Positions 1 to 44,879 of a stretch of DNA of 64,000 nucleotides are shown one piece after another. The position numbers were made by a program, and so were the translations under genes. The notes under the pieces are model-generated. The model was not told where the DNA came from. It made no database searches and saw only the letters and a list, made by a program, of their open reading frames with translations. Every line of letters begins with the position of its first letter. Position 1 is the stretch's first letter. This DNA is from Symbiodinium sp. CCMP2592 (Eukaryota; Sar; Dinophyceae; Suessiales; Symbiodiniaceae). The stretch spans positions 1 to 64,000 of the forward strand of contig CAJNDT010001255.1 in assembly GCA_905221615.1 (NCBI GenBank), written 5' to 3'.

Positions 1-863
1 CAGCATCAGGGTTTGGCACTCTGCCTTTTTGACTTTGCACATGTGACCCCCAGTGCGCAGCCAAGGGGGTCTTCCTGAGAAGATCACTGAAGAAGTTGTA
101 CCATTTGTGGTACTGTCGACGTTCTGAGCCGTTCCTGTTGCTCTCATCGAAAAACAAGTCCATACGCCACCACAGTTCGCCCTGTGAGAGCCAAGCTGCT
201 CTCGCTGGCAGTTTTGCATCATTTTCCAAGTTAAGCAATTGCCCATCACGGAGCAATAGCATGACCCACAGTTTCAGAAGCATCACCGAAATCCTCCAAA
301 GCAACACTGTACTTGAATCTTACTAAATACTGACACACACCTGCACGTGTGTAACAAGCCCCAGTTCACAACACATTGAATTCTTAAGAAATCAACCCAA
401 AGACTCACGATGACATGTCAGCAGCCACATCATGTCACTCGAACTTGAGACAGGAAACTATCGCAGATGGCACTGAACTGACAACCACATGGAATGATTA
501 ACACAGGCCACCGATGCCTTCAACTGGAGGTCGAGACACCAGCCAGGTCATTGCCACCTGCACGACAGCAGCATACGAACTGAGACAATACCGACAAACA
601 CATCTGATCACGGAGTGACTGAAGCTCTCTACCTTTTCATTGCACAGCTGCACCAGCTCGGATCACTCAGATCCTTCCACGAGGCGGCGAGGATTTTCCT
701 CGGCACCTCGTGGAGGGAACGGACGGGGTCCAGGGCTCAACCCAGTCCCAACATTGGAAAGCAGAATACCAACAAGACAGAATGTAGAAAGATGAAGCAA
801 GCTCATTTAACTCTAGAGAATTATGGCACTCTGCCTTATTGGCACTCTGCCTTCAGCTACAAT
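1..863. other. No gene recognised
   Basis: I see no supported coding sequence here. It holds three copies of the mini-palindrome (15, 825, 841) and otherwise unique-looking sequence. It could be the 3' region of the minus-strand methyltransferase-like gene. Confidence 0.5.
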
Positions 864-2021
864 TCATGTTGGGACATCCCTCATCATATGAAAGGCCACA
901 GCCTTGCCGAACTCCGGGGTGTACTCCTCTGACACCTGAAGATCTTCAGGACTACCGGTGAACTTCTCACCATCTCGATCAACGCAACCAGCACTTCCTC
1001 TGACATGGGAAGGATAGCTGCGCCGCATACCATTGATGTGCTGACAGTTGCTCCACAGTTGAAGCAGTTTCAGGATGGGCTGGCCGAAGGCACCACCATA
1101 GGTTTTGACCTTCATAGCCTGGATCATTCCCATGACACGATCGACGAGTGGAATGTCGAACAGCATGCTGGAGCAAGGCTGCTCGATCACAAACCGGTTG
1201 TCATCCAAAGCCGCGAGCAAAGTCAACAGCAGCGTCACATACATGAAACGATTGCCTTCTTGGCATGCCAGCGATCGCTCAGGTTCTCCCATCCAGTCAT
1301 TGGCAATGGACCTTCCAGTACTGTATTTACAGAGTTGGACGAAGGAAGAGCATGGAGTTCCAAACCACACCAGGCCGTGGTTGTGTGTTTGACACACAGC
1401 ATTGACAGCCAGGCGAAGTCCTCTCACAGAAAGAATATCATGATCTGTGCCGTACCTGATGTCCAAGGCTAGCCCCTGCCAGCCAGCACGGAGCATCTCC
1501 CGACTGAGGTTGCCCTGCCCTGCAAAGATCTCCAGGAAGTGGAACCTGGCACTCTGCCTTATGTTCCTCTTCCAATGACAAAAGTTGATGAGGAATCTCA
1601 TCTGTTTCTTCCATGGCCACGAAGTCATGATGGGAAAAGTTTCTGATAACATTTGTTGCCAGATTGATATCATCCAGGAAAACCCACTGGCTTCAAGAAT
1701 CAAATCATAGTTGCACTCAGGCAGAACTTCATAAGGACCTTCATTATGGAACTCCAGAAGCGACGGGTCAACTTCGCAAAGGCGCAGAACATCCTGTCCT
1801 CTCGAAATGGCCAAGAATCTCTTCTCCAGTTCGATGTTTGCATCAAACTGCCGCCGAATGTCTGCTAACAGTCTTCTTCTTGTTTCAGCCGGGTCATCTG
1901 CTGCTGCAGCCATGGCACTCCGAATTGCACTCTGCATGGCACTCTGTCCTATCCGCAAGAAAGTGTAACACCTTAACCTCAAGGTTGTTCGAATTAACAA
2001 CGTAATTGTGAACCAGCACAT
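864..2021 (-). CDS. SAM-dependent methyltransferase-like protein
   Basis: The ORF has 385 codons. The likely start is the Met at 1913 (MAAAADDPAET), because the codons before it are degenerate copies of the mini-palindrome (RIGQSAMQSAIRSAM). Around residues 162-200 is a Rossmann-type glycine motif, FLEIFAGQGNLS, followed by an acidic strand end (ALDIRYGTDHD). Farther on are WFGTPCSSF and VIEQPCSSM. Together they resemble motifs I, II, IV and VIII of the C5-cytosine methyltransferase class, with TPCSSF where those enzymes have PPCQ. Related domains occur inside the retroelements near 39 kb and 52.7 kb, so this could be a relative or a captured copy. The segment before the motif (ASGFSWMISIWQQ) may contain an unspliced intron. 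A copy of the mini-palindrome (RQSA) sits directly before motif I. Target and activity are unknown. Confidence 0.6.
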   Translation of the reverse strand: MCWFTITLLIRTTLRLRCYTFLRIGQSAMQSAIRSAMAAAADDPAETRRRLLADIRRQFDANIELEKRFLAISRGQDVLRLCEVDPSLLEFHNEGPYEVLPECNYDLILEASGFSWMISIWQQMLSETFPIMTSWPWKKQMRFLINFCHWKRNIRQSARFHFLEIFAGQGNLSREMLRAGWQGLALDIRYGTDHDILSVRGLRLAVNAVCQTHNHGLVWFGTPCSSFVQLCKYSTGRSIANDWMGEPERSLACQEGNRFMYVTLLLTLLAALDDNRFVIEQPCSSMLFDIPLVDRVMGMIQAMKVKTYGGAFGQPILKLLQLWSNCQHINGMRRSYPSHVRGSAGCVDRDGEKFTGSPEDLQVSEEYTPEFGKAVAFHMMRDVPT

Positions 2022-2320
2022 TCAGCAGTTGACACACTTGTGAGTCGATTGATCCATCACAACACAAGGATGAGACAGACATGATGCAATCACTCGTTGA
2101 AATTCACATGTGGCATAGTTGTTGCAGACCATGACTTCATGCTCAAGCACTCAAATACAGCACTGCCAGACCCTCACTCGATTCTCGTTTTTCTGGTACC
2201 GCACACAGCAGTCCATCCATCGTCCTCGACGATTCCGAGGCCACCGAGGTGGCAGACACAAGCATTCTTGGCACTCTGCCTTCTGTAAAGTTTCCAAGCT
2301 GTCATTGCAAGACATCAACC

Positions 2321-3322
2321 TTAGGGCCACCAGAAATCTTCAGGTGGCTCACAGTCGGAGGGTGGTTCTGAGGAGATATACCCCGATCGACGACCACGAA
2401 TGCGAAATCCTTTGCCTTCACCTGCAGACTCATACTGATTTGAGTCTGGGGACGACTGAGCTTCGTCCAGTGCGTCCATCTCCTCATTGTCTGACTCCTC
2501 ACCTTCCTCCACATCTGAGGGGGCTCCATCATCCGCTGAGCCGCGCTGACTCCAGTCCGTGTCTTCTTCTGAGATGTGCCCATAATCAATACCCAAACGA
2601 CCCCGCCCTCCAAGCTCACCAAGACGAACATCTCGAACACCTTCCTCAATCACATCTGAGTCTGAGGCGTGAATCTCACCTTCGGCACGAGCTGGCCCAG
2701 TCAACCAGGCATCCGGGCGAGATTCCAAACGAAAAAAAATTTGATCACGAACTCCACCTTCGAACTCATCTGGCACTCTGCCTTCCGGCACTCTGCCTTC
2801 TGGCACTCTGCCTTCAGCAGCTCCACTGTTGGCGTTATTGTTAGGGCGAGGATAGCCATTTTCAAGCATCGGCCTTGGCGGCACTATTGGTGGCGGCGGG
2901 TTGTCTGCAGCATTGAAACAAATGGCACAAATTCGCCGTTCCAACTGCCGACGTTGCATCTCCTCAGGTGTCAAGTTCTGAAGGGTGACCAGAACAATGC
3001 GGCCCTCCCTAACAGTAACCCCATCCGGCTCGAAGTTGATCAAGATCGGGGTCTCAGGAATGTCCAACGCTTCTGCCACAGCTTGGGCAATCTCAATCTC
3101 ATGTCGCGCAGGGGCAGGAGGTCGTGGGCAAGGTGGCCGATTCGCAGGTATTAGCGGCGGCGGACCCATGGGTGGCCCTGGTACTCTGCCTTCCGCCCCA
3201 CCGCCCTCTTCACCAATGCCATTCACAACGGTTGGCGGCACTCTACGAGGCCGTCGCTTCGGAGTCCTCACCCGGCCGATCCTCCCCGCTGCTGCCGGCT
3301 TGGCCTTCGGCTTCGGTGCCAT
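2321..3322 (-). CDS. Pro-rich, acidic-tailed disordered protein
   Basis: I do not recognise a family. The start is taken at MAPKPKAKPAAAG, a Lys/Pro/Ala-rich N-terminus common in dinoflagellate proteins; the longer ORF runs 11 codons farther. Residues about 1-85 are basic and Pro-rich. A possible folded core, from HEIEIAQAVAEAL to ICAICFNAA, contains a lone CxxC. After it come three tandem EGRVP units (2772-2814) made by 15-nt repeats of the mini-palindrome, and a long Asp/Glu/Ser tail ending in PPEDFWWP. A fourth, diverged copy gives EGRVPGPP near the N-terminus. The acidic tail and low complexity suggest an interaction or scaffold role, but this is inference only. Confidence 0.5.
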   Translation of the reverse strand: MAPKPKAKPAAAGRIGRVRTPKRRPRRVPPTVVNGIGEEGGGAEGRVPGPPMGPPPLIPANRPPCPRPPAPARHEIEIAQAVAEALDIPETPILINFEPDGVTVREGRIVLVTLQNLTPEEMQRRQLERRICAICFNAADNPPPPIVPPRPMLENGYPRPNNNANSGAAEGRVPEGRVPEGRVPDEFEGGVRDQIFFRLESRPDAWLTGPARAEGEIHASDSDVIEEGVRDVRLGELGGRGRLGIDYGHISEEDTDWSQRGSADDGAPSDVEEGEESDNEEMDALDEAQSSPDSNQYESAGEGKGFRIRGRRSGYISSEPPSDCEPPEDFWWP

Positions 3323-4684
3323 GGTGCTTAACTTTAAATATCTTTGATCCACCAAGTTGCAAGCAACTACCTGTGCTGGATAGTACGAACAGGTACTAGA
3401 TGTTGATTGTCATGTTCGTTTCAATACCACATGCAATATGTTCCACTGGACGACACAAGTATTTATGCACATGATCATTAGATGAACATATACTTGAAGA
3501 CAGAGTGCTAATGGATGATGTAGTTTAATGTTCCAAAGCAGTATGCCCCATAATAAGTATATGCATATAATCCATACATACATATATATATATATCTTAT
3601 ATATACCTAGGTCTATGTATAAACTTACCACACACAGTAACGGTTTAGGGTTTAAAAGAGCTTCAGGGTTTTAGGTTTTAAGGAGGTCCATGGTTTAAAG
3701 GTACTTAAAAGCAGAGTGCCACCTAGCTTATGCTTAATCATAAGATGTGTTACTACTCGTAGGGATTTGGTTGGGTTAGCTGGACTGTGCCGATTCAATG
3801 GGATTCGATATTGTATAACTAGCTCCCAAGATTCAATAAGCTCCAACAAGACTTTTGGGAGGGGATGTTACATGTGTGCAATTGTCTGGTACAGGGTCGG
3901 TGTGCCTTCAAAACGTGATGGCCCGAACACTAAGATTCAATAAGATTTTTTCGGGTAGTCCGTAATTCTGCAAATGTCTTCTAAGATTCAAAAAGATTTT
4001 TTTGGGCGAGCTGGAGGCGGTATCCCTTGTAAATTCGATAAGATTCAATAAGATTCAATAAGATTTTTTCGATGTAGGCCACAATTCTGCAAATATCTTC
4101 TAAGATTCAGTAAGATTCAATAAGATTTTTTGGGGCGATCTGGATTCGGCACCCTTTTAAAAATGATAAATCAATAAGATTCAATAAGATTCAATAAGAT
4201 TCAATAAGATTTTTCCGGGGCATGCCACAAGTGTCACAAATGTCTTCTAAGATTTTGCAGGGCCTGTGGGGCGGTATGGGGATGGTGTCCCTTCAAAGGC
4301 CATATGTTTTTTTAAACACGTATGCACCCCATTGCAGACTTCCGTGGTCCTTTGTTGGGTCCCTCCCAACTGGTGTTCTAGGACAGGTTGGATCCTGCCT
4401 TTGGCGCGGATTTGTCCACAGGCATCTGCAGTATCCTTGTGAAATCGACAGACCGCCTGGGATTACAAAGAGACATACATTCCTGATGGCATAATGCAAC
4501 ACAAGGCAACACAATCATGTCAATACATAATGATCATGGAACACATGTTACAACCCATGGCACTCCGCCTTCAGAAACATGTCTGTGACAATGGCATTGC
4601 CACACCTCCAAAATTAATAAGACTCGAGGCCACATCACCGACAACACATACACATGAGCCAGTTATTGTGGCACTCTGCCTTGT
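3323..4684. other. Spacer with telomere-like words
   Basis: No convincing coding region. Around 3640-3710 there are words such as GGTTTAGGG and AGGGTTTTAGG, like degenerate TTTAGGG telomere repeats. A reverse-oriented near copy of the mini-palindrome (GCAGAGTGCC) lies near 3711, and normal-orientation copies lie at 4559 (variant) and 4670. Positions 4260-4560 look like unique sequence. Confidence 0.45.
3820..4260. repeat. Degenerate tandem repeat with AAGATTCAAT units
   Basis: The decamer AAGATTCAAT and TAAGATTTTTTCGG blocks recur many times. A longer imperfect unit of about 120-150 bp is marked by CAAATGTCTTCTAAGATT at about 3971, 4089 and 4236, each time followed by runs of the decamer and then by GGGCGA- or GGGCAT-type sequence. 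No ORF runs through it. Confidence 0.75.
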
Positions 4685-4708
4685 TACCGAGCCACCTTGT
4701 CGACGCAA

Positions 4709-6332
4709 TCAGTCCACCACGGGGTCGTTGACCTCAGGAGCTTCCTCTTCACGAGTGCGGTCGTCAACGAGTTGAGCTTGTATTTCCTGAACGATTGCGT
4801 CCACATCATTAGCATCATCTTCGACAGGAACAGGGGCATTGCTTCCCGTGGACCCCCTCGGACCCAAAAAGAACCTTGCCATAGAGGCTGAGCTCGCACA
4901 CTTGAGAGGGCAAGCGGTGGCCTTGTTCCGCCCGGTCGACTCACAGTATCGATTGATACATTCGCTGTGAAAGAGGTGGCCACACGATAGCGCTTCCAAT
5001 GCCTGCATTCCAGGGAAGCAACAGAAAAAGACACGTCATGTGAGAGGTACTGTTCTGAGGATTAGTGGAATGTACAAACAGGACAGGCACCACTATCAAT
5101 GGTTCATTAACCAAAGGCAAACGAAACCAGCCTGCCTGGCCCGGGTGCATCTCCGAATGGCAAATGACACAGAGGTCCTGGTTCCACCGGTTCGCAGGTC
5201 TGCTCGACTCATTCGGAGCATCCTCCTCCTCCTCCTCAAAGAAGACACTGTCGTCGGCCTCGCGCTCGACCTCGGCCTCGACCTCGGCCCCGGCCTCGAC
5301 CTCGGCCCCGGCCTCGGCCATGACCTCATCATCGACCTCGACTGCGACCTCGTCCTGCGACTCTGTGTTTGGTGCCGTCGCCCTGGCCTTGGACTTGGCC
5401 TTGGCTTTCGACTTGCCCTTGGCTTTTGCTTTGGCTTTCGACTTGGGTGTCGCAAAGGGCACAACGGCATTCACGTCAGCACCGGCTGTCGAGTCACTGT
5501 TCGTGGAGGTGTCTGGCTCTGGCAACTCAACTGTTTGAGGTGCAGTGGTCACTTCTGCAGGAGGCATGACGATCTCCTGATCGGGCCTGATCTCTGCCTC
5601 TGCCGGCGCTAGACCATCGTCATCCATGGCAGGAGCATTCCCATCAACTGGCACTCTGCCTTCCACAACCCTCGGCACTCTGTCTTGTTCACTTCCTGCA
5701 TCCTGGCTGCCTTCGGTTGCCTGGCTTGCATTGGAACCCGGAACGGCATGAGGGGAGGCAGGCGGCTGTTGAATCGGCACTCTGCCTTGTTCCCCAGCCG
5801 GGCTGCGACCCACAGCCTGGCTTGGATTGGAACTAGGAGCAGTCGTTGGCAAAGGACCAGAACGGACCACGTCTGGCACTCTGCCTTCCGACGGCGGAAC
5901 CGTTGGCGGGGCAGCTGGAGCAGGACTCGGATTGAAACTGAGACGTCCCTGCGTCTCAGTGGACTGCCTTGCTCTCGCTCTACGCCTGGCATAGGTCGTG
6001 ACATCCTCGGTCATCCATGTGGACTGCCATCCACACTCCAAGGCAACCCTGTCAACAGAATGCTCAGACATATTCACCCCCAGTCCCAGAACCGGTTTGG
6101 CTATGCGGTTCCAACTGCTGCTATCGCAGACGGATTGACGCCTATGGGCATTCTCACATCGCTGACCAAGCAAGCTGTATTTCATATCGACCCTGAGTTC
6201 ACTGACCTTTGTGGTCGGCTTCAGATTGGTCAATATGAAGAGCAGTTGCAGCGCTGTTTGTTGTGGCAGGTCAGCCGTGACCGCAGCATCCCATGCACTA
6301 TGAACTCGCTCGAGCAGAGCTTTCACCTTCAC
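4709..6332 (-). CDS. RING-H2-type zinc finger protein (two exons seen)
   Basis: Two exons, 6332-5136 and 5002-4709, join in phase 0. Joining completes a RING finger that neither exon has alone: CVIC in the first exon, then SCGHLFHSEC with the C-x-H-x2-H-x2-C pattern of RING-H2 and a CPLKC pair (one residue longer than the usual CPxC) in the second. RING-H2 proteins normally act as ubiquitin E3 ligases that bind an E2 enzyme. The first exon begins at an AG acceptor (its first codon is GTG), so an upstream exon is expected, perhaps the Gln/Met-rich ORF at 6393-6827. Between the N-terminal part and the RING lie a Pro/Ser linker carrying several mini-palindrome peptides (EGRVP, QGRVP), a Lys/Ala repeat region and a Glu-rich stretch. 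The C-terminus is acidic. Confidence 0.7.
5003..5135 (-). other. GC-AG intron in the RING finger gene
   Basis: On the minus strand the donor reads CCAG|GCAGGC and the acceptor ATGCAG|GCATTG. Removing 133 nt joins MHPGQ to ALEALSCGH in phase 0 and completes the RING pattern. AGGC is repeated at both junctions, which fits known dinoflagellate intron features: GC donors and a G after the acceptor AG. Confidence 0.75.
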
Positions 6333-6392
6333 CTCAGTCAGTAAGGCTTATCTAGGCTTTGTGGGGGGAGGGTTCAGGGATCATTGCTGACC

Positions 6393-6827
6393 TTAGGGAT
6401 ACTCGGTTGATTGACAAGCAGCCAGAGGGATCGAACGCAATGTCGTGGCGCTTCTCGGGATTGCATCTGCATCGGTAGTGGACGTTGCCAGCCGATCAAT
6501 CCCGATCGTTGCTGCTTGCCTTGCTCTGTTCTTCTTGGTTTCCTTACGAATCCTCCTCACTTCTTGGTCTTCTGATTCCGACGAGGAGGAGTCGTTGGCA
6601 CGCTGCCTTGATTCACCCACAGCAGCCATCTGCTGCTGTTGCTGCATTTGCTGCATCTGCTGCATTTGCTGCATCTGTTGCTGCTGCTGCATCTGTTGCT
6701 GCTGTTGCAACATGAAAGGGTTCATCATGGCCAGTGGGTTGTTCATTCCCCTTGCTGGGTTCATTGCCCCCGGCATTGGGAACATCATCTGATCACTCAC
6801 ACGAGCGCTCTTCCTCGACTTTCCCAT
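6393..6827 (-). CDS. Gln/Met-rich ORF, possible upstream exon of the RING gene
   Basis: The start is set at MGKSRKSARVSDQMM. The ORF has an Asn/Pro/Met-rich segment, then a long run of Gln with Met at intervals (about 6635-6715), then an Asp/Glu/Ser patch and a basic Lys/Arg stretch. No family is recognised. It lies just upstream, on the same strand, of the RING exon that starts at a splice acceptor near 6333. A GC donor after CTG near 6430 would join it in phase 0, but that site is weak, so a separate gene ending at 6393 is equally possible. A variant of the mini-palindrome falls in the coding part (near 6597), and an exact copy lies just before the start (6848). Confidence 0.45.
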   Translation of the reverse strand: MGKSRKSARVSDQMMFPMPGAMNPARGMNNPLAMMNPFMLQQQQQMQQQQQMQQMQQMQQMQQQQQMAAVGESRQRANDSSSSESEDQEVRRIRKETKKNRARQAATIGIDRLATSTTDADAIPRSATTLRSIPLAACQSTEYP

Positions 6828-6989
6828 TGCTCTCGGCGACTGTCTCTGGCACTCTGCCTGGAAGCACCACTGCAGCACTAAGGGACTCGATCTTGAACAC
6901 ACATATGTTGATTGCGGCCAGGTCAAGAAATTCTTGCGCATCCACCCACTAGTCACTAGAGTCCGTACACACTACGTGGCATGGTCCCA

Positions 6990-9900
6990 TCAACGGCCAG
7001 ATAGCAAGCGTTTCAGCTTCCACAACTCACAATCACTTGCATCATGCATTCCAGCCTTGCCATAGTAGCCAACCACCTTGGACGCCAGCACCTGAAAAGT
7101 TTTATGGGGCTGTCACAGGAAACCAAGGTTGAACCAATCAATTCACAGGCACAGTAATTAATCCATCGAGTTACTGCCGACATGACTGTATGCATAGGCA
7201 TCGTCTTTGTTTTCCAAAACGGCAAGCTGAAATGTGCCAGATCAGACGGACCGCAAAAGTGACAACATTCAAACGCCCCAAGAAATGCGATTTCACATTG
7301 GCACTCTGCCTTGCCGGCACTCTGCCTAGTGACAGCGACACAAAAAAGAATCTGAACAGGCCACACTGTTTGGTGGCACTCTGCCTTAGTCACACCGAGA
7401 ACTCTCTGGCACTCTGCCTTGTGAAAGTCCCCAGTGCCCAAGGACGAATGGGATGAAGAAGAGGAGGTCCACTAGATGGCTTTGTTTTGGCAACACAATT
7501 AATAAACCTACTCGTTCAGCTCAATCATTGACACTGATCAATCCTGAAAGGCATCTGCAGTTACTCCCCAATCAGGAACGAAGTTCGCAGTGGTCTGGTA
7601 AACATCCACATACTCTTCATCTTCCGATGGCGGGACATCATCACCCATCTGGCTCACCGCGTCTAGGTTTTCCCCCCTTGCCTTCTGTTCCAGCTTCTTC
7701 TGACAATACACAAGCATGGTGTAATTGTAAGCATCCCAAATCTTGCAGGACAAAGGCACAATCAAGCTCTGCAGGTCTTTGGGCTTGAATTTTTCCTTTG
7801 AGATGACATCTTCCGTCGTATAAACCTCAACGAGTGTCCTGGAGGCCTCAAACCAGTGCCAGTATGTCAGATGTTTTCCCTTGACTTTATCACGGCCATG
7901 TTTTGGCGGAGTGACATTGAACATGCACTGGAGAATCTGCTCAATGACCGCCACCCCAGTTTCCCTCTGAAGCCACAGGTTCCAGTCCCCAGGCTCAGAA
8001 TTGTTTGGAATCTCCTTCACGTTCTGGTCACACAACAGATCCCAGACAACCGCAGTTTTCGAGCCCTTCGACCGAAAGTGATTCCACGCCATGTCCTTTC
8101 TATCCACTGGCACGTTATTCTTCTCGCATTCTCGGACTGTGATCTCATGGACAGCCATGAGCAGCTTGGTCATGACAGTCGTAGTCTTGCTGTTGAACTT
8201 CCGATCGTTGTGCTGGGGGTTGAACGGCTGATCTTGTGGCACCGGTCTCGCCATACGTGCCCGATTGGCGAGGCGGCCCACCTTCGAAGTCGTCACCGCC
8301 CTGTGACTGCATGGCAGCATTCCCCGCAACGCTCTGAGAGTTTTCTCCTCCTCAGTCTCTGGCTGCAAAAGCTCGGCTGGCACCTTGATCTTGTTTTGAC
8401 CCCTTGGCACTCTGCCTTGGGGGTCCGTAATTCCGAGGTCCTCCTCCGCTTCCAAGAAAGGCTTCACCTCTCCAGGCACTGGCGCAGTCGCACTCTTCGG
8501 GTTTGCGGCAGCCTTCGGGCTCGGGTCCACATTCATAGCCTCCAGCTCGTTCATGACCTTGGCGACGACGGCATCGTGCTCGCTCTCAGTCACCCGGGTC
8601 TCCGGTACAGAAGGCATCGGCTCATCTTGCTCCTCTCGGAGAGGGTCCCCTAGTACCATTGTTGCTTGGCTGTCACCCTCATCCTCGTCCAAGCGATCCG
8701 GGTCGGGCTCCGCCTCCATCTCAAGCGGCGGTTGCTCATCCTGCACCATAACCTCGACAAATTCCATTTCATTGTCCGACGGATCTTGCACAGGCTCCTC
8801 CTCTTCCACCCCAACATCAACCAAAGTGTCCTCCTCCTCGGCTTCCACCTCCTCCTGGGGGTCCAACCATATTCCTCCCTTCTCCGTCTTCATATGCCGC
8901 AAAAAAGCAGGATGAGCTTCGCCTGGACGGCCCTTTCCAACAAGGTGAGTAGGGATATTGGGACGGCCCTTGCCAACAAGTGGCACTAGGGCTGGACGGC
9001 CCTTTCCAACAAGGTCAGTAGGGATATTGTCCTCCACTGGCACTCTGCCTTTGTGGCCCTTTCCGGCAGGCTTGCCCTTTTGGGCGAAGTAAGCTGCTTT
9101 CCCGATCGGGACGGCGTCGCCATTGCTTTTCAAGCCCTGGGCCTTTGCCACCCAGGCCGGCTCAGCGCGTCGGCCCTGCGGAACGAAATTGGAGCCTCTT
9201 GCCGTATCGTCAGCATACTCGGCAAGTTCCTTGGCGAAATCCTCCTCGTCCATCCTTTGCTTTTCCGTCATTTCAGCAGGAGCACTTGCCGACATAAACT
9301 GTGGCTTGGAACCAACAGGCACAGGCTGTCCGTCGCCGAATTTACTTTTGGCAGGAGGCTGCTTTGCCGGCGGGGGACCCATCGGCTCTGGCACTCTGCC
9401 TTGCTTTGCCGGCGGGGGACCCATCGGCTCTGGCACTCTTGGAGGGGGATTCGGCTCGGGATCTGGCACTCTGCCTTGCTTTGCCGGCGGGGGACCCATC
9501 GGCTCTGGCACTCTGCCTTGCTTTGCCGGCGGGGGACCCATCGGCTCTGGCACTCTTGGCTGGGAATTCGGCTCGGGATTCGGCTCATCGTCATGCCAGG
9601 CATCGTATTCGTCCTGGATGACGGGCATTCTGGCCGTTCTGCCCCAGCGATGTTGCTGCTGCTGGTGGCCAGGAGGAGGATGAGCTGGTTGCACCGGGCC
9701 CTTGCCAGGAGGAGGATGATCTGGTTGCACCGGCCCCCTGCCAGGAGGAGGATCTGGTTGCACCCTGCCAGGAGGAAGTGGTTCCCACTCCTGCTGCCAA
9801 GGGTGATCAGGCAGAGGCCCAGCATTTCGCAGCGGTCTTACTGGCACCTGCCACGGAGCAGGAGGCCTCGCCTTTTGCTGAGGCGGTTTATGCAAAGGCG

Positions 9901-11413
9901 GGCGGGCCCCCCTGGGAGGAGTCCCATCAGGATGATGTATTGCTTTGCCTTTGCCTGGCCCTCTGCCTTCTACTGGCACTCCTCCTTTCATCCCTTTGGC
10001 TTTTGCAGTCGCAGATCCAGGGGGATCCCAGGGAGGTGTCGAATCCCAACACTGAGGTGGCGGAGGATTCGGCGGCGCAAGTGCCTGCGGCTGAATTCTG
10101 CTCATTACTGCCCTTGTTGCCTCGCCCCTCATTTGCTGGCATTGTTGCATCAAGTCCAGACCCTGCTGGAACTTTGCTTCCAGATTCTTGCACAACTTGT
10201 ACAGATCGGACACCATTTCACCAACTCTCCACTTATTCGGTCCATAGTCCGTTTTGAATTTTTCGCCAGCAGCAAGCATCTTCTTCCAGACCTGTGACGC
10301 GTACTCGGAGACGGTGGCGCTGTGGTTTGAGGGAATTTGCCAGAAGCTCAGAAAGCAGTTGAGGTGACCCTTCATCTTTTTTGCGGGAACCTCATTAATT
10401 GGTAGGCAACCGGAGCAGTCCACCAAGGCAAACGTCAAATTCTCCGCCCCCACTGGCACTCTGCCTTTGTGGTCCGGCACTCTGCCTCCCATGACAGTAA
10501 TGTTATTCTCATGGAGGTCCCCCAGAAGACTCCCTTCCAGCCTAAGGGTATGCATTTGTAGCTTCAAGACAAACTTGAACAGCTTGAAGAGGATCAGCAT
10601 GGTCTCTTTCTCTGGGAACTTGCTTGGGTCGGAAAACCTCTGGTTGAGGAAGGCTCCCACAGTCGTCCCGTTGCCTTTGGCTTCTGTGACGATCACCGAT
10701 TTTCTCATCCGCGGTGCCACTACGCCCGAGGCATGGGTGACCAAGGTTTTCAAGTCGAAAGCGAGCGGGACAGGAAACGATTGCCAGTGGGTTGTGAACA
10801 TTCGAGATTGCAGAAAACGCCAGTCAAATTGGTTTCCACACTCTGTTTCATCCTTTGCGAGTGGCCTGTGCAGCTTGACACAGAGGTGCACCTGATCTGT
10901 CCGATTATTGAAGTCCAGAGCATCTTCAGGAATAGAATCCACCAGTCTCAGGGCCTCTGCTGCGACTTCCGGGGCTTTGAGGACTTCGGCACTCTGCCTT
11001 TCAGACCGAGGAATCCTGACCTCGCGCAGAAGCTTCAGAATGTCGATGACCCACGGCTGTGGGATCCTCGCAATCATTGAGTCCCGATTCATTCCATGAC
11101 CGACGTATTTCCATTCACACTTGCACTGTTTGAATCCTTTCCCGCCTCTCACGCGGAATTGCAGGCGGACCTCACCGAAGGCTGTGACATAGTAGTCTAG
11201 AGGTTTTTTGATCGGCCAGGGATAATTCGGACCCATCTGCAAGGATCCATCCAGCTGTTGTTCGTAAAACTCACAGGTGATGTTGCCGGCTCGCACATTG
11301 GCCCAAAACGTCTGACCAAGCGGACTCGTATGCACAGGCGCTGTCATCCTGCGGCACTCTGCCTTGTCCAGCCAGATTGCGGCACTCTGCCTTGTCCAGC
11401 CAGATGCAGGCAC
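6990..11413 (-). CDS. Large protein with kinase-fold-like motifs and Pro-rich repeats
   Basis: The main exon (11413-7544) encodes about 1290 residues. The likely start is MTAPVHTSP at 11347; two mini-palindromes and a variant lie directly before it. Residues about 298-304 read GDLHENN and about 331-335 VDCSG. This resembles the catalytic loop and metal-binding site of phosphotransferase or atypical kinase folds (HGDLHxxN ... DFG). Two GRVP insertions lie between them. Residues about 430-800 are Pro/Gly-rich with tandem PEPMGPPPAKQGRVP-type repeats and three VGKGRP repeats (8929-9030). An acidic stretch and a conserved-looking C-terminal part (HLTYWHWFEASRTLVEV) follow. A short last exon, 7091-6990 (VLASKVVGYYGKAG to the stop), fits in phase 0 after a 452-nt GA-AG intron. 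Activity is uncertain because the first His of the loop and the Phe of DFG are changed. Confidence 0.55.
7092..7543 (-). other. Probable GA-AG intron holding four mini-palindromes
   Basis: The minus-strand donor reads TTTCAG|GATTGA and the acceptor TTTTCAG|GTGCTG. Splicing is in phase 0 and replaces the ORF stop with a 33-codon terminal exon. GA donors are known in symbiodiniacean genes. The intron contains exact mini-palindromes at 7300, 7316, 7375 and 7408. If the intron is not real, the protein simply ends two codons later, at 7538. Confidence 0.5.
9362..9559 (-). repeat. In-frame tandem repeat built on the mini-palindrome
   Basis: A block encoding PEPMGPPPAKQGRVP is present four times in two pairs (9362-9442 and 9479-9559). 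Each block carries GGCACTCTGCC or its variant GGCACTCTTGG at one edge, so the mini-repeat has been amplified together with neighbouring codons, in multiples of three. Confidence 0.85.
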
Positions 11414-11474
11414 TCAGCCTTCTCAGTCCAGCTCAAGGCACTCTGCAAAGAATGGCGAGGCGGCACTCTGCCTT

Positions 11475-12472
11475 ATAATGTCGAAATGATATACTACCTC
11501 TGACGTCAATGTGTTGTTAGATTATAGTTACTAGTATTTGACACAATTTAAATTATATCAACTATATTTTGATATTATGCTCACATTGACATTAAATATC
11601 ATGCATATGCCATCATTCAAGGACCACGACTCACTTCACTTTGAGCAACTCCATCGACAGAATAATCATGACATGACACTTTTATTGAAGCAGCAGCTAC
11701 ACGGAGTTTAACTTAATTGAGGGGCCAGACAGACTCAGCATGATCGGGAGCTTAGCACACGAATGAAACCTAATTCAAGGGCTGTGTTGATATTCAAATC
11801 TGCCATATGCCATGATTCAAGGACCACTGCAGCAACATTTGAAACCTGAGCAACCATCATAAGCCATAGGCAAAACAATCATGACATGACACTTCAGAAG
11901 CCCGAGAATGCTAAGTTGAATTTGGCAACGCAGAAGCAGCATGATCGGAAGCTAAGAACAGCACCGATGACCAGCAATCCTGGGGTCTGGAGACGCCAGC
12001 TGACGGCCAAACCTTGCATGGTCACTTTCATTCATACTCAGACTCTCTCAGCACAGTCGCAAACCCAACACATCCAACAGAACTCAGAAGTGCTCGGTCT
12101 TCAGAAGTCTCAGCACTCACAGTTTTGCTTCTGCAGCAAGCAATGCTCTTCTGGAGGCACTACTCTGACAGCGACGAGGCCTTCTCCAAAACACTCACAA
12201 CTTTGATCATGACTTGTTGGTTTGCCTGCACCACAAACAAATAACCTGTTGCTGTGCGAAAGGCAGGCAGAAGTCCACATGAGCAGACATCGGCACTGAA
12301 AAACTTGAGAAGAGTCAGTCGACGAAGCCTGACCCACCTGGCACTCTGCCTTCGTCACTGTCCTGGCCTGTAAATTAATTGATGTTGGAATTTGCCACTC
12401 ACTGAATGGTCCAATTCTGGGCACTCTGCCTTTGGCACTCTGCCTTTTAAGGCACTCTGCCCTTCTTTTTTC
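11475..12472. other. AT-rich spacer without a recognised gene
   Basis: No supported coding sequence. The words CATATGCCATGATTCAAGGACCAC (about 11,605 and 11,803) and AATCATGACATGACACTT (about 11,660 and 11,877) occur twice, roughly 200 bp apart. A diverged tandem duplication of about 200 bp is therefore likely. Mini-palindromes at 12340, 12420, 12434 and 12451 lie at the right end, just 3' of the next gene. Confidence 0.5.
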
Positions 12473-13634
12473 TCACGATTCGCCGTCCATCATCAGGATG
12501 TTTTCTTGCACAATAGCAGGCTCGAACTCGTTGTAATCCTCCTCATCGTCCACACGCTCTTCATTCCAGGCCTCCGGATCATCTTCGTCGTAACCGAATC
12601 TCACCATGGTCGTGGTCCACAAGAGTTGCTCACCTTCGCGGACTTCCCCTTCCCACAGCGTCAAATTCTCAGCCCCCCGCGCCCAGCCCTGATGACAGGC
12701 ATAGAGCCATCTTCTCTCCGTCATCACTTGCATGCCTGCACCGGTGAGCTCCAGCTTCAGGTAAAGTGGCGGTGCCTGTTTATCGATCCTGAACTGAGAT
12801 CATGTTGAAGTTGCTACTTGATTCTAGTCAGTTTTAATTATTAAGATCCGTAGATATAAGATAATAAATAAATGTAGCGTCGAAGCATGGCTTGCATCTG
12901 AGTGGCCATCTAATGCTGTCTGGCCACCATTGGTAGCGTTCAAGGGCCAACTGGGCCGTGGGGCGCAAGGACCAGTGCGGATGGTTTTTGGTCTCCGAGG
13001 AACCGGGTTGCGCCCAAGCGCTGATGCCGTTCCCTTTCAAGAAGTCCCAGCGAATCTGCAGGGAGACATCCAGTCAAGCAGTAAGAAACAGTCACAATCA
13101 ACACATGCTATGATTATCATCAAACACACTGCCCACTGCCTGCCAAACGTCCTCCACGCACATGAAGTATGTGTGAAGGGTCTGGTTGGGGTCTTGCATC
13201 GGGGTCTTGCCCTTCTTTCCCTTGCCCTTGCCAAGATCGCCCTTGCTCGCGCTGGCACTCTGCCCTGTGGCACTCTGCCCTGTGGCAGTCTGCCCTGGCT
13301 TTCCTGCTCCCTTCCCGACCTGACTTGTTCTTTGGGCTTGAGCGTTGTTCAATGAGTTGGTCAGCTGCCAATTTGAAAACTCTTGCAGCTGAGTGCGGTG
13401 GCGGCCTGCCCCTGTGTTTTCCATGGCGGATAATGACTTGCCCACTGCACAATTGGGACAAGGGCACTCTGCCTTACCTGAACCAGACTGCTGCAACAGC
13501 ACAAGTAGGCAAAAATGAGCACTCATTACAATCACCGGAGACTGACTGTTAAAGTCACATTTGCACCCACTGAGTCGCCGGCTGGATTCACTCATCCAAT
13601 CGCCCCAGCGGCCCTGATCACCATGTCGGCACAA
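12473..13634 (-). CDS. Small Cys/Trp-rich protein with acidic tail, multi-exon
   Basis: No family is recognised. Three exons can be joined. The first (up to about 13634, ending at 13140) holds CPCPNC and a Gly/Lys/Ser linker with TGQSATGQSA peptides. The second (13055-12896) encodes IRWDFLKGNGISAW and HWSLRPTAQLALERYQWW. The third (12735-12473) encodes MQVMTERRWLYACHQGWARG and a Glu/Asp-rich end. The introns are GC-AG in both cases: 84 nt (13139-13056, phase 0) and 160 nt (12895-12736, phase 1). The upstream part of the first exon also has a Cys cluster (CGNC, CRLC) just beyond 13634, so the true start is upstream and another intron may exist. The second and third exons look like one small Trp-rich domain. 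Confidence 0.5.
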
Positions 13635-13939
13635 CCGACAAAGGAACTGACAGTTTCCACAACCGAGACGGGCATGATCTCACTTTCTTTTTAAGCTCAG
13701 TCAGTAACACCGGCAGCCAGGTTTAAACGCACGAATTAAGCTGTGACTGCCAGCTGAAAGTGGGAATGTAACTATTAGCCTTTTCAAGGTAAGGACTGTG
13801 TTTCACTTCCAGCCAGCAGTCCAGTGTCGGGTCCAGGACTCTCTGGCTGGGCCAGTGTCGGGACACAAATTTCGACGGCTCAGAATCATTCATTGGAGCA
13901 GAACTGTTTGACCATGGACTTCGGGTTCAGTGTCGATGA

Positions 13940-15238
13940 TCAACTGTACGTGTGCAGCTCATCCTGCATTTCCAGCAGTGCTTCAATCATGTACTCACGA
14001 TCCCGGAATGGAGCATAGTAGGCTCGGTGGTTGATCCACCTGACAATGGCTTGTTCCATGGTCATCGAGGCAAAGGCCATGACTAGGACACAATAAGCAG
14101 CACAGGTCCTGTTAATGCCACCGTAGCAATGGACAAGCACACGAATTGGCCTCTTCTTGCCTCCACGCTTCCGACCACCTCCCTGAAGCTTCATCGCCTC
14201 CAACAAAGCAAGAGCATTACCGAGCTCACCAGGGAATGTCTCATCGGCCACCTTCAAGGCACTCTGCCTTCCATCGGCACTCTGCCTTCCATCAGCGGCT
14301 CTTCCGAACAGGCTGCCCATGTCACTTCCCTTGCTGAAGCCCTTGTCATAGGAGCAGCCATAGCCAAATGAGCCCTTCGTCGATGCCTTCTGGCTTTGCA
14401 TGTGATTGGAAACCTGACAGGGGCCGCTGTAGCCCTTGCTGATTGTCTTGCCCTTGCCCCTGCCGCCATTGGCCTTGCCCATCATTTTGCCCTTGATGGC
14501 ACTCTGCCTTTGACTCTGGCTGAACTCCTCTGCTGAGCGCTGCCAGCACATCATAATCTTTCTGAAATCTGAAATGAGGCGGCGCCAAATGGTCTTGAAC
14601 TCATGACTTCTTTGTTCAGCATCAAAGTCATTGGCATGTGTTTGATCCCAGCCACCATACCGAAGATGTGCAGTGCCAAACGGTCCACAATTCGCCAAAT
14701 ACTGATACCAGTCCCATGGCTCAAAATTCCGAGGTCTGTCATCTGCATTCATAGAGATGACAATGTCAGGCTTGACCCGGAGCTGGTCATATCGGATCGG
14801 GCAACCAATACTGCCAACAAACAGTTGCCACTGGGGATGGTCGTAAATCAAAACATCATCCATGGGCCACGTCTCGACATCATGCTGGCATGGCCGAGGT
14901 GGCGGGATCGACCCAGGCAGCACATCTGTCTGGCCGGTCCATGCTTTGTACAACTTCATATCCATATCTCCGAAATCTGAGATGGCCTCAACTGCCAATT
15001 TGATTCGTTGATCCAATTGTGCAGCCCTTTGGATCTTTCGGAGCCCGGTGGTATAGTCGGCAGCTGATCTGCCACAGTGTAAACAATTCCACCGAAGTTG
15101 TTGCACGGCTTCGTTCCAGTAATCACTGCCAAGGTCAATGTGATTGGCCTGATTCTGATGGTCAGCAGCAGAAGTCTGGCACTCTGGCTCGGAACTCCCT
15201 GAGCACCTTGAAACGGTCGTCGGCATCACTGCTTTCAT
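13940..15238 (-). CDS. Dual-specificity protein phosphatase-like protein
   Basis: The 432-codon ORF ends in a domain with the signature VHCYGGINRTCAA, the HCx5R(S/T) P-loop of protein tyrosine and dual-specificity phosphatases. The Cys is the expected nucleophile and the Arg binds phosphate. A conserved-looking N-terminal part (IRYDQLRVKPDIVISMNADD) resembles the strand-and-Asp region of such folds. It is separated from the P-loop by a long basic Gly/Lys/Ser-rich insert (about residues 245-335). That insert contains the mini-palindrome three times, as QRQSA and tandem DGRQSA (14258, 14276, 14498). The 23 nt encoding MKAVMPTT are repeated downstream of the 112-residue gene because the first exon start lies inside the tandem duplication at 15216-16923. 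RNA 5'-triphosphatase-like activity is an alternative within this superfamily. Confidence 0.7.
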   Translation of the reverse strand: MKAVMPTTVSRCSGSSEPECQTSAADHQNQANHIDLGSDYWNEAVQQLRWNCLHCGRSAADYTTGLRKIQRAAQLDQRIKLAVEAISDFGDMDMKLYKAWTGQTDVLPGSIPPPRPCQHDVETWPMDDVLIYDHPQWQLFVGSIGCPIRYDQLRVKPDIVISMNADDRPRNFEPWDWYQYLANCGPFGTAHLRYGGWDQTHANDFDAEQRSHEFKTIWRRLISDFRKIMMCWQRSAEEFSQSQRQSAIKGKMMGKANGGRGKGKTISKGYSGPCQVSNHMQSQKASTKGSFGYGCSYDKGFSKGSDMGSLFGRAADGRQSADGRQSALKVADETFPGELGNALALLEAMKLQGGGRKRGGKKRPIRVLVHCYGGINRTCAAYCVLVMAFASMTMEQAIVRWINHRAYYAPFRDREYMIEALLEMQDELHTYS

Positions 15239-15682
15239 CGAGCACCCAATTGTCCAACGATTAAAACATTAACAGTGACTAATGCATCACTATACAGTAC
15301 ATTAACCAATGATATGTAACATTTTGTTACTACTGTTACATCAGTATGAATGAATCACTTGATTATCTGGCCGGCAGATGTCGATCATGTATGGTGCAAG
15401 GCAACTCACTGACAGACTATGCAGGCAGGCAGGCAGGCAGCCAGCCTCGGAGACAGCAGGGTCCTGAGGACATCACTGCCACCCGGCACTGTGTAGTCAG
15501 CATGTCATGCTGGGTAACCTTTTTGAATCCAACTTGCGCACACTACCGCTGAGGTCTCAAATCGGACAGTCTAGCTCTGCTGGCGAGATCGTCGAATTCG
15601 AAATCCTCACACACGCAAAACCCGGCACTCTGCCTTCCCTAACATCCGTAAGCAGTCTCGAAGGCTGTACAAACACGATGAA

Positions 15683-16021
15683 TCATTGATTCATCATTGA
15701 CGACACAAATTCGTCTGACACATTGTAATATAAAACTCCTGGCACTCTGCCTTGCCTGCAATCCTGCACAAATCTCGGAAAGAGTACGTGCAGGATCATA
15801 TCATTGATATGATAGTCTACTTGCAAGACTTGCCCACGCTCTTCAGAATTCAGAAACAACCACAATGTCGAAAAGGACTCCTCTAGCAGCTCGTCGAAAT
15901 AAATCACATAATCATCGTAGTCACTGTCCGCGATCGAGCCCACAGTGCTTGCACGCTCATCGGCAACCACAATCCAGTCCGAGTCCAGAGACTCACTGTC
16001 ACTCCACGACATCGACGACAT
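15683..16021 (-). CDS. 112-residue acidic protein, copy 1
   Basis: The family is unknown. The protein starts MSSMSWSDSES, has a Ser/Asp-rich N-terminal third, then a possible helical region (FDELLEESFSTLWLFLNSEERGQV split by acidic residues) and a C-terminal VLYYNVSDEF. The mini-palindrome at 15741 is in frame and gives QGRVP. It differs from copy 2 at roughly a third of positions, many conservative, which suggests it is translated rather than a chance ORF. Confidence 0.55.
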   Translation of the reverse strand: MSSMSWSDSESLDSDWIVVADERASTVGSIADSDYDDYVIYFDELLEESFSTLWLFLNSEERGQVLQVDYHINDMILHVLFPRFVQDCRQGRVPGVLYYNVSDEFVSSMMNQ

Positions 16022-16533
16022 CTGCCGGCTTGCAGGGGGGCCTACTACGACTTAGACTAGAGACAGAGCAGGTCGTCGGCATCACTGCTTTCATCGAGCA
16101 CACAATTGTCCAACGATTAAAACATTAACAGTGACTAATGCATCACTATATAGTACATTAATCAATGATATGTAACATTTTGTTACTACTGTTACATCAG
16201 TATGCATGAATCGCTTGATTCTCTGGCCGGCAGATGTCGATCATGTATGGTGCAAGTCAACTCACTGACAGACTATGCAGGCAGGCAGCCAGCCTCGGAG
16301 ACAGCAGGGTCCTGAGGACATCACTGCCACCCGGCACTGTGTAGTCAGCATGTCATGCTGGGTAACCGTTTTGAATCCAAGTTGCGCACACTACCGCTGA
16401 GGTCTCAAATCGGACAGTCTAGCTCTGCTGGCTAGATCGTCGAATTCAAAATCCCCTAAACACACGCAAACCCGGCACTCTGCCTTCCCCAAGATCCGTG
16501 ATACTGTCGCGGAGGCTGTACAAACACGACAAA

Positions 16534-16872
16534 TCATTGATTCAGTGACGACAGCCATTCGTCTGTCACATTGAAATATAAAATTCCTGGCACTCTGCCT
16601 TGCCTAAAATCCCGCAAAAGTCTCGGAAACAGTACGAACATGATCTGTTCATTGATATGGAAGGCTGCTCGAAAGACTTGCCCACGCTCTTTAGAATCCA
16701 GAAACATCCACAATGTCGAAAAGGACTCCTCTAGCATCTCGTCGAACGGAATCACATAATCATCGTCGTCAGCACTGTCCGCGACCGAGCCCGCAGTACT
16801 TGCACCCTCATCGTCAACCAGAACCCAGTCCGAGCCCACAGACTCACTGTCACTCCACGACATCGACGACAT
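16534..16872 (-). CDS. 112-residue acidic protein, copy 2
   Basis: Paralogue of the copy at 15683-16021, from the tandem duplication. It has the same length apart from small compensating indels, the same MSSMSWSDSES start, and the same in-frame QGRVP from the mini-palindrome at 16590. The reading frame is intact in both copies while spacer sequence between them has diverged by substitutions and small indels. This supports purifying selection on the protein, though no rate was calculated. Confidence 0.55.
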   Translation of the reverse strand: MSSMSWSDSESVGSDWVLVDDEGASTAGSVADSADDDDYVIPFDEMLEESFSTLWMFLDSKERGQVFRAAFHINEQIMFVLFPRLLRDFRQGRVPGILYFNVTDEWLSSLNQ

Positions 16873-17249
16873 CTGCCGGCTTGCAGGGGGGCCTACTACG
16901 ACTTAGACTTGAGACAGAGCAGCTGTAACACGACTATAGTAGATTACGCAGGGCAACAGCGAGCACAACTGCTGCAGCGGCAAGTTGCGATACATGACAC
17001 GCTCACTGACTATGCAAGGCAGCTTGTCCTCTGCGATGGCAGCATGTCTTCAGGATCCTCGTCATGAGCCTCGGTGCCAGGACTGTACCATAATAATGGA
17101 AGTAGCTGAAGCAAGCTGATGCTGAGATCCCAGCAGTTGGCATCCACTTCTCGATGGGCTGGAAGCCGATGAAGACCGATGGGAGAGAAGGAAATGGAAG
17201 AGAAGGCGTTCACTAGGCTTGGATTCAAACCGAACACTTAGACCTGGCC

Positions 17250-17850
17250 AACGGTGTGGGGAGCAACCCCGATGGGGCAGGGACTTAAGTAAGGCAACCT
17301 CGAGAGGCTCGACTGGCACTCTGCCTCTGTCGATCCAAGTCGCAAGGCTCCCTAACTAACGTGACAAGCATGGATGGCCTCCCCTCCTGGTTGGGAGAAA
17401 AATAAAAAAGCCACAACCACTGGACCACCCCACCCGGCACTTTAGCCCATGTGCCCGGGTGTCATATGCCACTGCCCTGGCACGTTGGCCCCAAGGCGGT
17501 CCAGGTACCATCGACAACACCTGACACCCGGCCAACGGTGTCCACGAACCGAGATGGGCAGTCGATCCGTGTGGGTAAGGTGGCACTCTGCCTCTGTCGA
17601 TCCAAGTCGCAAGGCTCCCTAACTAACGTGACAAGCATGGATGGCCTCCCCTTCAAGGCTGTAAGCACGGCTGCGAACAACCCCTCAACCGCCCCACCCG
17701 GCACTTTAGCCCATTTGTCCGGGTGTCATATGCCACTGCCCTGGCACGTTGGCCCCAAGGCGGTCTAGATACAATCGCCTCATAACCTGACACCCGGCCA
17801 ACGGTGCCCACGAACCGAGAAGGGCAGTCGATCCGTGTGGGTAAGGGCAA
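17250..17850. repeat. GC-rich tandem duplication of about 265 bp
   Basis: The block GGCACTCTGCCTCTGTCGAT with following sequence occurs at 17315 and 17582. CACCCGGCACTTTAGCCCAT occurs at about 17431 and 17695, and CCGGCCAACGGTG at about 17528 and 17792. A more diverged third part starts near 17,245. These carry the last two mini-palindromes of the window. Confidence 0.85.
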
Positions 17851-17874
17851 GATCTCAAGGCAAGTCAACATGTC

Positions 17875-18972
17875 ACTACGGCCTCCCTTCTTTGTTCAAT
17901 CACAACCCAAAACTATTTAAAAAGATTAAATATTAAAAATTATTAACTTCAACAACAAATAAACAACAATTTTGTAGACATACAGCAGCAGGAAACCAGG
18001 TAGAACAACAGGAAGCCAATTGACTCACTCAGAAACAAAATCACAAACATGTATTTTTTACACCAAAAATAAAATAAAAGAATTTTAACAACTGTAAAAC
18101 ACAAAAAAACCTATTTAAAAAACTTTTAAATACAAAACAATACTTTTAAATACAAAAAAACACTTTTAAACACAAATAAAGCCAACCACATACAAAAATG
18201 AGATTTTGGGTTCCTTTCATATAAGCCTTGTTGATCTAAACCCTGTGGTTCTGGTTCGGCGCAAAGGGTTAAGGATAGTAGTAGTAGTAGTAGTAGCAGT
18301 AGCAGTAGCAGTAGCAGTAGCAGTAGCAGTAGCAGTAGCCGTAGTAGTTCATACATAGTACATATATATATATATATATATATTTATTTATTTATGTATA
18401 TTTCATAATATATAGCATTATACTATATACGATATAGCATTTTTCGTATGTATGCTAGTAATATATGTATATATATATACACAGTATTTGTAGAATTAAT
18501 ATATATGTTACTATATGTATGTAGATATATATATATATATATATATATATGGTAGCATTATTGTTGATCATCATCACGAACTTCCCTGCTGGTAGAGTCG
18601 TCACCAGTCTGACCAGGAGGTAAATCACTCAGGTTGGGGTTCATGTCCTCACTCGGCCTCATGTTTCCAAAAGAAACCCTAATCCGGAATCGACGAAATG
18701 CAAACTCCGTGGTTCCGATCACACCATGAGCGCGCGAGGGGATCTAACTGCCTTTTTACGGGCGACGCACACAACAACGTACTGTCTTAGGCTCAGTTCG
18801 CCTAGAGACCTATGCTGTGTCGTGACTTCTAAAGGTGTGAAGCCCACCATGACTCACCGCTGTGAGCCATGCACTTCAGCAGTCAACATGAGAGAGTGCA
18901 CCAGCTGTACAAACGAATGTCTGGTATTTCAAACTCCTCCTTGGCTTTGACGCTAGTCTTAAGCCACACTAC
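17875..18972. other. AT-rich spacer
   Basis: A/T-rich, with poly-A-like ATACAAAAAAACACTTTTAAA words (18,080-18,170). No supported gene. The microsatellites inside it are listed separately. Right of 18,560 the sequence is unique-looking and leads into the retroelement 3' end. Confidence 0.5.
18277..18551. repeat. Microsatellites (GTA)n, (AGTAGC)n and (TA)n
   Basis: A GTA run passes into a perfect AGTAGC-type hexamer run (about 18,277-18,345), followed by TA runs at 18,361-18,381 and about 18,525-18,551. The poly-Leu ORF in antisense is a by-product. Confidence 0.9.
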
Positions 18973-44850: not shown

Positions 44851-44879
44851 AACCTTCCTCCAGCGGACCCAGAGCAACA

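Follow-up and report, generated by a model that had tools for sequence, protein, structure and literature searches.

An oriented 11-bp palindrome dispersed through a giant transposon-like element of Symbiodinium may be a family-specific recognition site

The window analysed here is the 64,000-nucleotide stretch C1255:1-64000 (contig CAJNDT010001255.1) of the 1,098,105,373-base assembly of Symbiodinium sp. CCMP2592. Its first part is a block of minus-strand genes in which an 11-bp palindromic motif, GGCACTCTGCC, recurs in one orientation. This motif-bearing block is the gene-5' part of a giant, transposon-like element that is bounded by terminal inverted repeats (TIRs) and has many copies in the genome; the contig begins at window base 1 and therefore lacks the rest of this copy. 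The element and the motif are laid out as follows.

1..18276, genes on the minus strand: gene-5' part of the element, about 18.3 kb, a 96-99% match to C1:1157003-1190172 (contig C1); its right end also matches contig C2890
18223..18276: terminal inverted repeat at the gene-5' end, with a simple repeat outward of it; over 54 bp it matches the other end of the C2890 copy in inverted sense at 85%
17314..17846: a pair of direct repeats in subterminal position, each about 267 bp long and starting at a motif copy
15..17592, minus strand: motif copies, sense GGCAGAGTGCC, consensus AAGGCAGAGTGCCAG; 44 exact and 10 with one mismatch, four of these exact in a C1 copy
3710..3720, plus strand: reversed copy with 1 mismatch, beside telomere-like sequence and exact in both C1 units; a second reversed copy, with 2 mismatches, at 3499-3509

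Across the window, exact matches to GGCACTCTGCC number 44 on the plus strand and 0 on the minus strand. The initial annotation had described about 44 same-orientation copies in 17.6 kb, a few reverse near-copies (3711 and near 3500) and no exact copy in the following 46 kb, and all of this is borne out: the near-copies are a one-mismatch site at 3710 and a two-mismatch site at 3499, and positions 18277-64000 hold no exact copy on either strand. The one-mismatch neighbours comprise 10 on the plus strand, all before 15.2 kb, and the single minus-strand site at 3710. In gene sense, 61 sites from the window block and the left part of the C1 copy yield the consensus AAGGCAGAGTGCCAG, preceded by A at -2 in 54 and at -1 in 57, and followed directly by A in 43 and then by G in 35. 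Beyond two flanking bases per side, the surroundings of the motif appear unrelated between sites. The gene-sense sequence could fold into a predicted GGCA-GAG-UGCC hairpin, and direct reading agrees with the earlier statement that the 11-bp unit is free of stops in all six frames. Clusters occur with copies 13-28 bp apart, in several of which the spacers differ. The motif follows the sense of the predicted genes at the loci examined (L149, L150, L151, the C1 body and L142, the last through its 99.9% match to the window), so that its proposed orientation with transcription is upheld for these gene models.

The predicted genes of the element in the window are listed below.

864..2021, minus strand: 385-aa open reading frame (ORF), the gene also present in a distant family; C5-DNA-methyltransferase-like, from FAGxGN, PCSSF and EQP read by eye and a medium-confidence structure model
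2324..3409, minus strand: 362-aa ORF with three motif copies in 15-bp tandem (EGRVP)
4712..6347, minus strand: RING-like gene with three motif copies as GRVP; RING matches below curated cut-offs
7541..11413, minus strand: 1291-aa ORF in which 10 motif copies fall, two ahead of the presumed ATG; without a Pfam or NCBIfam family and with a kinase-like signature (GDLHENN...DCSG) by eye
13943..15268, minus strand: 442-aa ORF with three motif copies in the RQSA frame; dual-specificity-phosphatase-like end, below the curated cut-off

Five long ORFs contain 20 of the 44 window copies, including the two that precede the presumed start codon (ATG) in the 1291-aa ORF, and the other 24 lie outside them. 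When seven ORFs from the window and the C1 left part are taken together, 30 copies are read as GRVP (22), RQSA (6) or KAEC (2), one RQSA and one KAEC copy being the two that precede this start codon. The use of three reading frames, the presence of noncoding copies and the strict gene-sense strand together indicate constraint or spread at the level of nucleic acid. Of the earlier claim that the motif lies in exons, introns and spacers alike, coding and noncoding placement in three frames therefore stands, any placement in introns being putative. A feature selected as protein is rejected on account of the same frames and noncoding copies. It is likewise very improbable that the motif is a coding repeat, EGRVP, that grew by slippage and was spread by internal duplication; the 15-bp tandem units do vary from 1 to 3 copies across homologues and the GRVP frame does prevail within ORFs, but the peptides from the three frames are unrelated, more than half of the window copies fall outside the five ORFs and the flanks past two bases look unrelated.

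The unit that carries the motif was delimited from copies in which both ends are represented, at C1 1146661-1190175 and C2890 918875-945518. Its length is 26.6 kb in C2890 and 28.7 kb in C1 once an internal tandem duplication of a 14.8-kb part is subtracted, and the C1 unit runs about 10 kb past the part present in the window. The ends, both read at C1 and C2890, pair as inverted repeats over about 54 bp. A 5-bp target-site duplication, TCTAC, flanks the C2890 copy; the C1 copy sits in an AT repeat, and the window shows one end only. A 33-mer from the TIR has 259 + 330 = 589 exact matches in the genome against 0 for its control. Among 100 of these 589 places, the first in contig order, there are 34 convergent neighbour pairs, 0 divergent ones and 2 in the same direction within 80 kb, with 32 places unpaired, it being understood that neighbours are not necessarily the ends of one element and that decayed ends are missed. 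The listed pairs span 4.2-6.8 kb (9 pairs), 11-24 kb (5) or 29-59 kb (20), a pattern that fits a mobile element with internally shortened derivatives. The pairs of 4.2-6.8 kb (e.g. on C51, C102 and C113) are probably internally deleted, non-autonomous derivatives. TIRs thus bound the unit at many loci, as in class II TIR transposons, and the repeats on many contigs together with the TIRs led to the rejection of a host gene block. Within the window, AAGATTCAATAAG tandem repeats at 3828-4260 vary in copy number between element copies.

Searches with element proteins also recover many copies. The query P0003 gave 100 matches at 50 scored loci (of 14,520 candidates), with open frames of 1,036-1,342 aa and an internal stop in 2 of the 100. 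With P0024 as query, a 962-aa protein of the element was recovered; 776 candidates were available and 51 loci were scored, 46 of them with one and the same score, an indication of recent spread.

Genome-wide, the exact 11-mer is found 10,552 times on one contig strand and 9,890 times on the other (20,442 in total), compared with 126 + 118 = 244 for the reversed control. The confinement to one gene block that had been described holds within the window and fails for the genome. The near-equal counts on the contig strands fit elements inserted both ways; counted against gene orientation, the C1 element has 105 gene-sense and 11 reversed copies. Fifteen blindly picked genome stretches (148,629 bases, of which 4,000 were the window's own end) contained no 11-mer, even with one mismatch. 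A pattern with fixed distant context had 5 matches, as did its control (5), and one of the five was another copy of the block. The scarcity of matches off the element indicates that the 11-mer copies share a small number of contexts, the pattern expected of a repeated unit, and as far as seen the genome copies of the 11-mer belong to one repeated element. At 76 copies per element, the total suggests about 270 full-element equivalents. Chance, which had already been discounted, is excluded by the 44:0 count in the window, by the genome count relative to its control and by a 13:0 count for a second motif in a distant family, described below. Viral contigs scanned for the motif gave, among the matches listed, 80 loci with one match each, which were taken as chance, and a scan of viral contigs with the element proteins produced no lead.

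The reversed copies have a distinct distribution. The 105 gene-sense copies of the C1 element are accompanied by 9 reversed copies in a terminal array and 1 in each of two internal units; without one duplicated unit the figures are 66 sense and 10 reversed (18 + 9 on the left, 48 + 1 on the right). The array forms the 3' end of the element and is a telomere-like tandem repeat with units of about 93 bp, carrying the reversed motif 9 times in C1 and 7 times in C2890, where one sense copy lies ahead of it. In C1 the array occupies L121:7101-7911 (C1:1147101-1147911) and is rich in TTAGGG/TTTAGGG. The internal reversed copies of C1 (20732 and 35505) also adjoin telomere-like sequence, and the decayed site at 3710 is their counterpart in the window. 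With a reversed 3' array and a sense body, the motif reads GGCAGAGTGCC inward from either end.

TNPA and transposases bind subterminal repeats of plant elements, and the motif could similarly be a site in duplex DNA, bound by the transposase or an accessory protein of the element, or self-methylated by its own DNA-methyltransferase-like protein. The terminal array and the motif-bearing 267-bp repeats at the 5' terminus suit such a site, as do the equal inward orientation from both ends, the dyad symmetry of the arms and the weakly methyltransferase-like 385-aa gene, which the distant family shares. A near-perfect duplex dyad, however, would be expected to serve in either orientation and not to hold to a single one across some 27 kb, and the copies occur throughout the body rather than at the ends alone. 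Reading at the DNA level is accordingly regarded as somewhat unlikely.

A distant family was found when genome contigs were searched for relatives of the 962-aa protein. The 115 candidate stretches included one relative, L152, of 7,769 bases, filed under a bacterial metagenome-assembled genome (MAG). L152 (JASJEH010000121.1) appears to be eukaryotic, probably of dinoflagellate type, and would have come into a Methyloceanibacter MAG by mis-binning. It encodes homologues of the 385-aa and then the 962-aa protein consecutively, in pieces that suggest introns by eye and in the same order as in the focal element, where the 385-aa gene lies upstream of the 962-aa gene. L152 has no GGCACTCTGCC on either strand with one mismatch allowed, and carries instead CCCTTGCNNCNACGCAGGG. 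Up to 3 mismatches, there are 13 matches (4 exact), divided 13:0 in favour of the gene-sense strand, where 0.23 are expected and 0 of 200 shuffles reach 13; this chance figure is optimistic because the pattern was derived from L152 itself, although the 13:0 strand bias was not built in. In the whole MAG, 11 of 15 places with at most 2 mismatches are on L152, all on the plus strand, and the other four equal the control (4). Within L152 ORFs the copies are read in two or more frames (LAATQG at 4810, 5596 and 6623; PCSDAG at 929).

When the L152 motif is modelled as a hairpin in which a T is bulged out and the loop has 6 bases, 94.4% of cells pair. Changes on both sides of the stem (C-G to U-A) are found in 2 of its 6 pairs, with no double change in slid versions, the identical copies at 3320 and 3752 being counted once. 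Further repeats lie in the same loops of homologous proteins, namely QGVLP five times in P0024 and RGVVP three times in P0023, where 200 shuffles reach at most 2 for any 5-mer; these peptides hint at more dialects of the motif. The distant proteins P0025-P0027 have no 5-mer occurring three times. Across families, the sequence of the motif turns over and its design persists.

Comparison of the window with both C1 units bears on how the motif arose. At common sites, one-base differences affect 5 of 48 sites relative to one unit and 3 of 38 relative to the other. The one-mismatch window copies at 3180, 6597, 9957 and 15178 have exact counterparts in a C1 copy and have therefore decayed, and site 5650 is exact in the window and changed in one C1 unit. 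The motif might be a micro-parasite: a minute sequence, self-inserting or templated by a hairpin, would have invaded the element and, in the form of another sequence, its distant relative, without use to the element and with an orientation taken from transcription-coupled insertion. The near-invariance of the 11-mer, the close clusters with differing spacers and the lack of a clear excess of conservation are compatible with this. So is the 12-nt difference by which the homologue P0002 has four residues, AECQ, that are absent from the window protein within otherwise conserved sequence. The window DNA at that gap reads AAG GCA AGG, however, so that the supposedly empty site retains AAGGCA, as would be left by a deletion between GGCA repeats, and elsewhere GRVP stands opposite an equally long but different stretch of P0001. 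No clean empty site was seen among the copies compared, which share their sites, and a separate parasite would be needed for each of the two motifs that behave alike in the two families. On balance we judge a parasitic origin unlikely.

The reading that we favour, tentatively and short of calling it probable, is that the motif copies are dispersed recognition sites of which an element-encoded factor reads the sense strand in single-stranded form, probably as RNA. In favour of a recognition site that belongs to the element and acts as nucleic acid are the strict strand, the indifference to frame, the presence in noncoding sequence and the turnover of the sequence while the design is kept; single-stranded sense reading is preferred because a dyad in duplex DNA would not need one orientation. 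The motif would act as a short hairpin in element transcripts, or in single-stranded sense DNA, and the factor that reads it would co-evolve with it to give one 'dialect' per family. Tagging of this kind could let element RNA, or a single-stranded intermediate, be known as self, whether for protection, export, packaging or modification. Candidates for the factor are the 962-aa protein and the 385-aa protein that resembles DNA methyltransferases; the two occur together in the distant family. A more general proposal, possible though doubtful, is that giant dinoflagellate transposons carry dozens of micro-hairpins, specific to each family and placed throughout their genes without regard to frame, as tags of their own sense RNA or single-stranded DNA; this self-recognition code with dialects would be read by a co-evolving factor encoded by the element, possibly a DNMT2-like enzyme that acts on RNA hairpins.

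Several observations, in addition to the optimistic chance figure for CCCTTGCNNCNACGCAGGG, weigh against recognition of a single-stranded hairpin. The double changes in L152 are matched by 20 of 500 shuffles and the covariation score by 10 of 500; alignments slid by -2 and +3 score 0.129 and 0.157 against 0.129 for the actual register, without double changes; and the covariation amounts to two events, one of which (7622) is possibly a chance match. The hairpin is short, at -4.4 kcal/mol with a z-score of -2.2. The RNA-level 4-bp stem with a GAG loop proposed in the initial annotation is compatible with the data and receives some support from the paired-arm changes in L152, but the focal motif is nearly invariant and offers no compensatory variants. 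In copies that are 96-99% alike, conservation of the motif does not clearly exceed that of the remaining sequence: differences number 5 of 528 in the motif vs 245 of 17,720 in the rest, and 3 of 418 vs 161 of 13,767, with a reverse trend in a third comparison (12 of 440 vs 168 of 14,298). Such a lack of excess conservation would be expected anyway for transposon copies after insertion, yet it lends no support. The same inward motif from both ends also fits a subterminal binding array in DNA.

The chassis is of a known kind, a giant TIR transposon. Like Polinton/Maverick, Teratorn and other giant DNA transposons, the element spans tens of kilobases, has TIRs, several genes and, at C2890, a short target duplication, and occurs also as shorter TIR-bounded copies; unlike them, it has TIRs of about 54 bp, a dispersed oriented motif and, in the ORFs scanned, no Pfam-recognisable polymerase, integrase, protease or capsid. 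To our knowledge, the dispersed, oriented and family-specific motif is without precedent. Rickettsia palindromic elements and other small genic palindromes are also short palindromic units in frames without stops, whereas the focal unit is only 11-15 bp long, oriented and tied to one mobile family, and its insertion is putative. The packaging-signal hairpins of single-stranded RNA viruses are likewise many, short, confined to one strand, overlapping with coding sequence and recognised as a set; the focal motif differs in belonging to a DNA-transposon-like element, and in being near-invariant within its family, and a packaging role for it would be hypothetical. DNA uptake sequences of Neisseria and Haemophilus are likewise short, overrepresented in coding and noncoding DNA alike and divided into lineage dialects, but extend over the host genome, whereas the focal motif is bound to a mobile element and has one orientation. 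The subterminal repeats of plant Ac and En/Spm resemble it in the repetition of a short motif near the ends with symmetrical inward orientation, but the focal copies span the entire body and the genes.

Dinoflagellate introners are, in the available portion of PMC11453091, another high-copy short sequence in dinoflagellate genes, but they are introns, whereas the focal motif is far shorter and stays in open frames. An introner was rejected as an explanation because open frames run through the 11-bp units without a stop and the predicted proteins of other records retain the peptides. In a related alga, Maverick elements are located at domain boundaries, according to PMC11071213. The available portions of the literature on dinoflagellate palindromes and introners, palindromic elements, gene blocks, and giant transposons and Polintons contain no description of the motif or the element, and text matches to the letters of the motif returned no title on algae or transposons.

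If the element and its distant relative each punctuate their whole length with their own oriented sequence, a eukaryotic transposon would have a system for marking itself. The motif provides a direct way of testing how recognition of very large elements works in the unusual nucleus of dinoflagellates, and serves as a marker for finding and classing such elements. It also carries a warning for annotation, in that gene models of this sort that contain EGRVP, RQSA or KAEC peptides can belong to a transposon.

The proteins of the element have few recognisable relatives. A Pfam search with its three main proteins matched no family, nothing in Pfam fell below E 0.1 for the 962-aa protein, and a scan of the ORFs against Pfam found no Polinton/Maverick polymerase, integrase, protease or capsid family, although divergent versions could escape it. 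Foldseek with the low-confidence model of the 962-aa protein and with the 385-aa model gave no row at E <= 0.001, and a sequence search of the PDB with one element protein (A1) found no match. By eye, the 962-aa protein has a possible DDE set (ADGSTHS, LGLDQGS, EFH). The RING-like gene apparently has at least two exons, represented by a 468-aa ORF (4944-6347) and a 108-aa ORF (4712-5035). Homologues of the element proteins were drawn from ENA, JGI and Logan, with one EukProt gene model (P0010); one of the homologues, P0015, joins a bacterial-looking N-terminus to the methyltransferase-like C-terminus of the element and is probably an assembly chimera.

Downstream of the element, several long minus-strand ORFs at 19029-42664 resemble copia-type retroelements by eye, the ORF at 19029-20957 being without a Pfam match at E <= 0.01. 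A Dicer-like or other helicase gene that is free of the motif lies on the minus strand at 61588-63538 (Helicase_C, E 3.7e-12, in 61588-62238). Between these, positions 43000-44900 form a dense repeat of AAACTATCTAAACC and AAACCAGCTAAACC words, with AAACCAGCTAAACC in both orientations.

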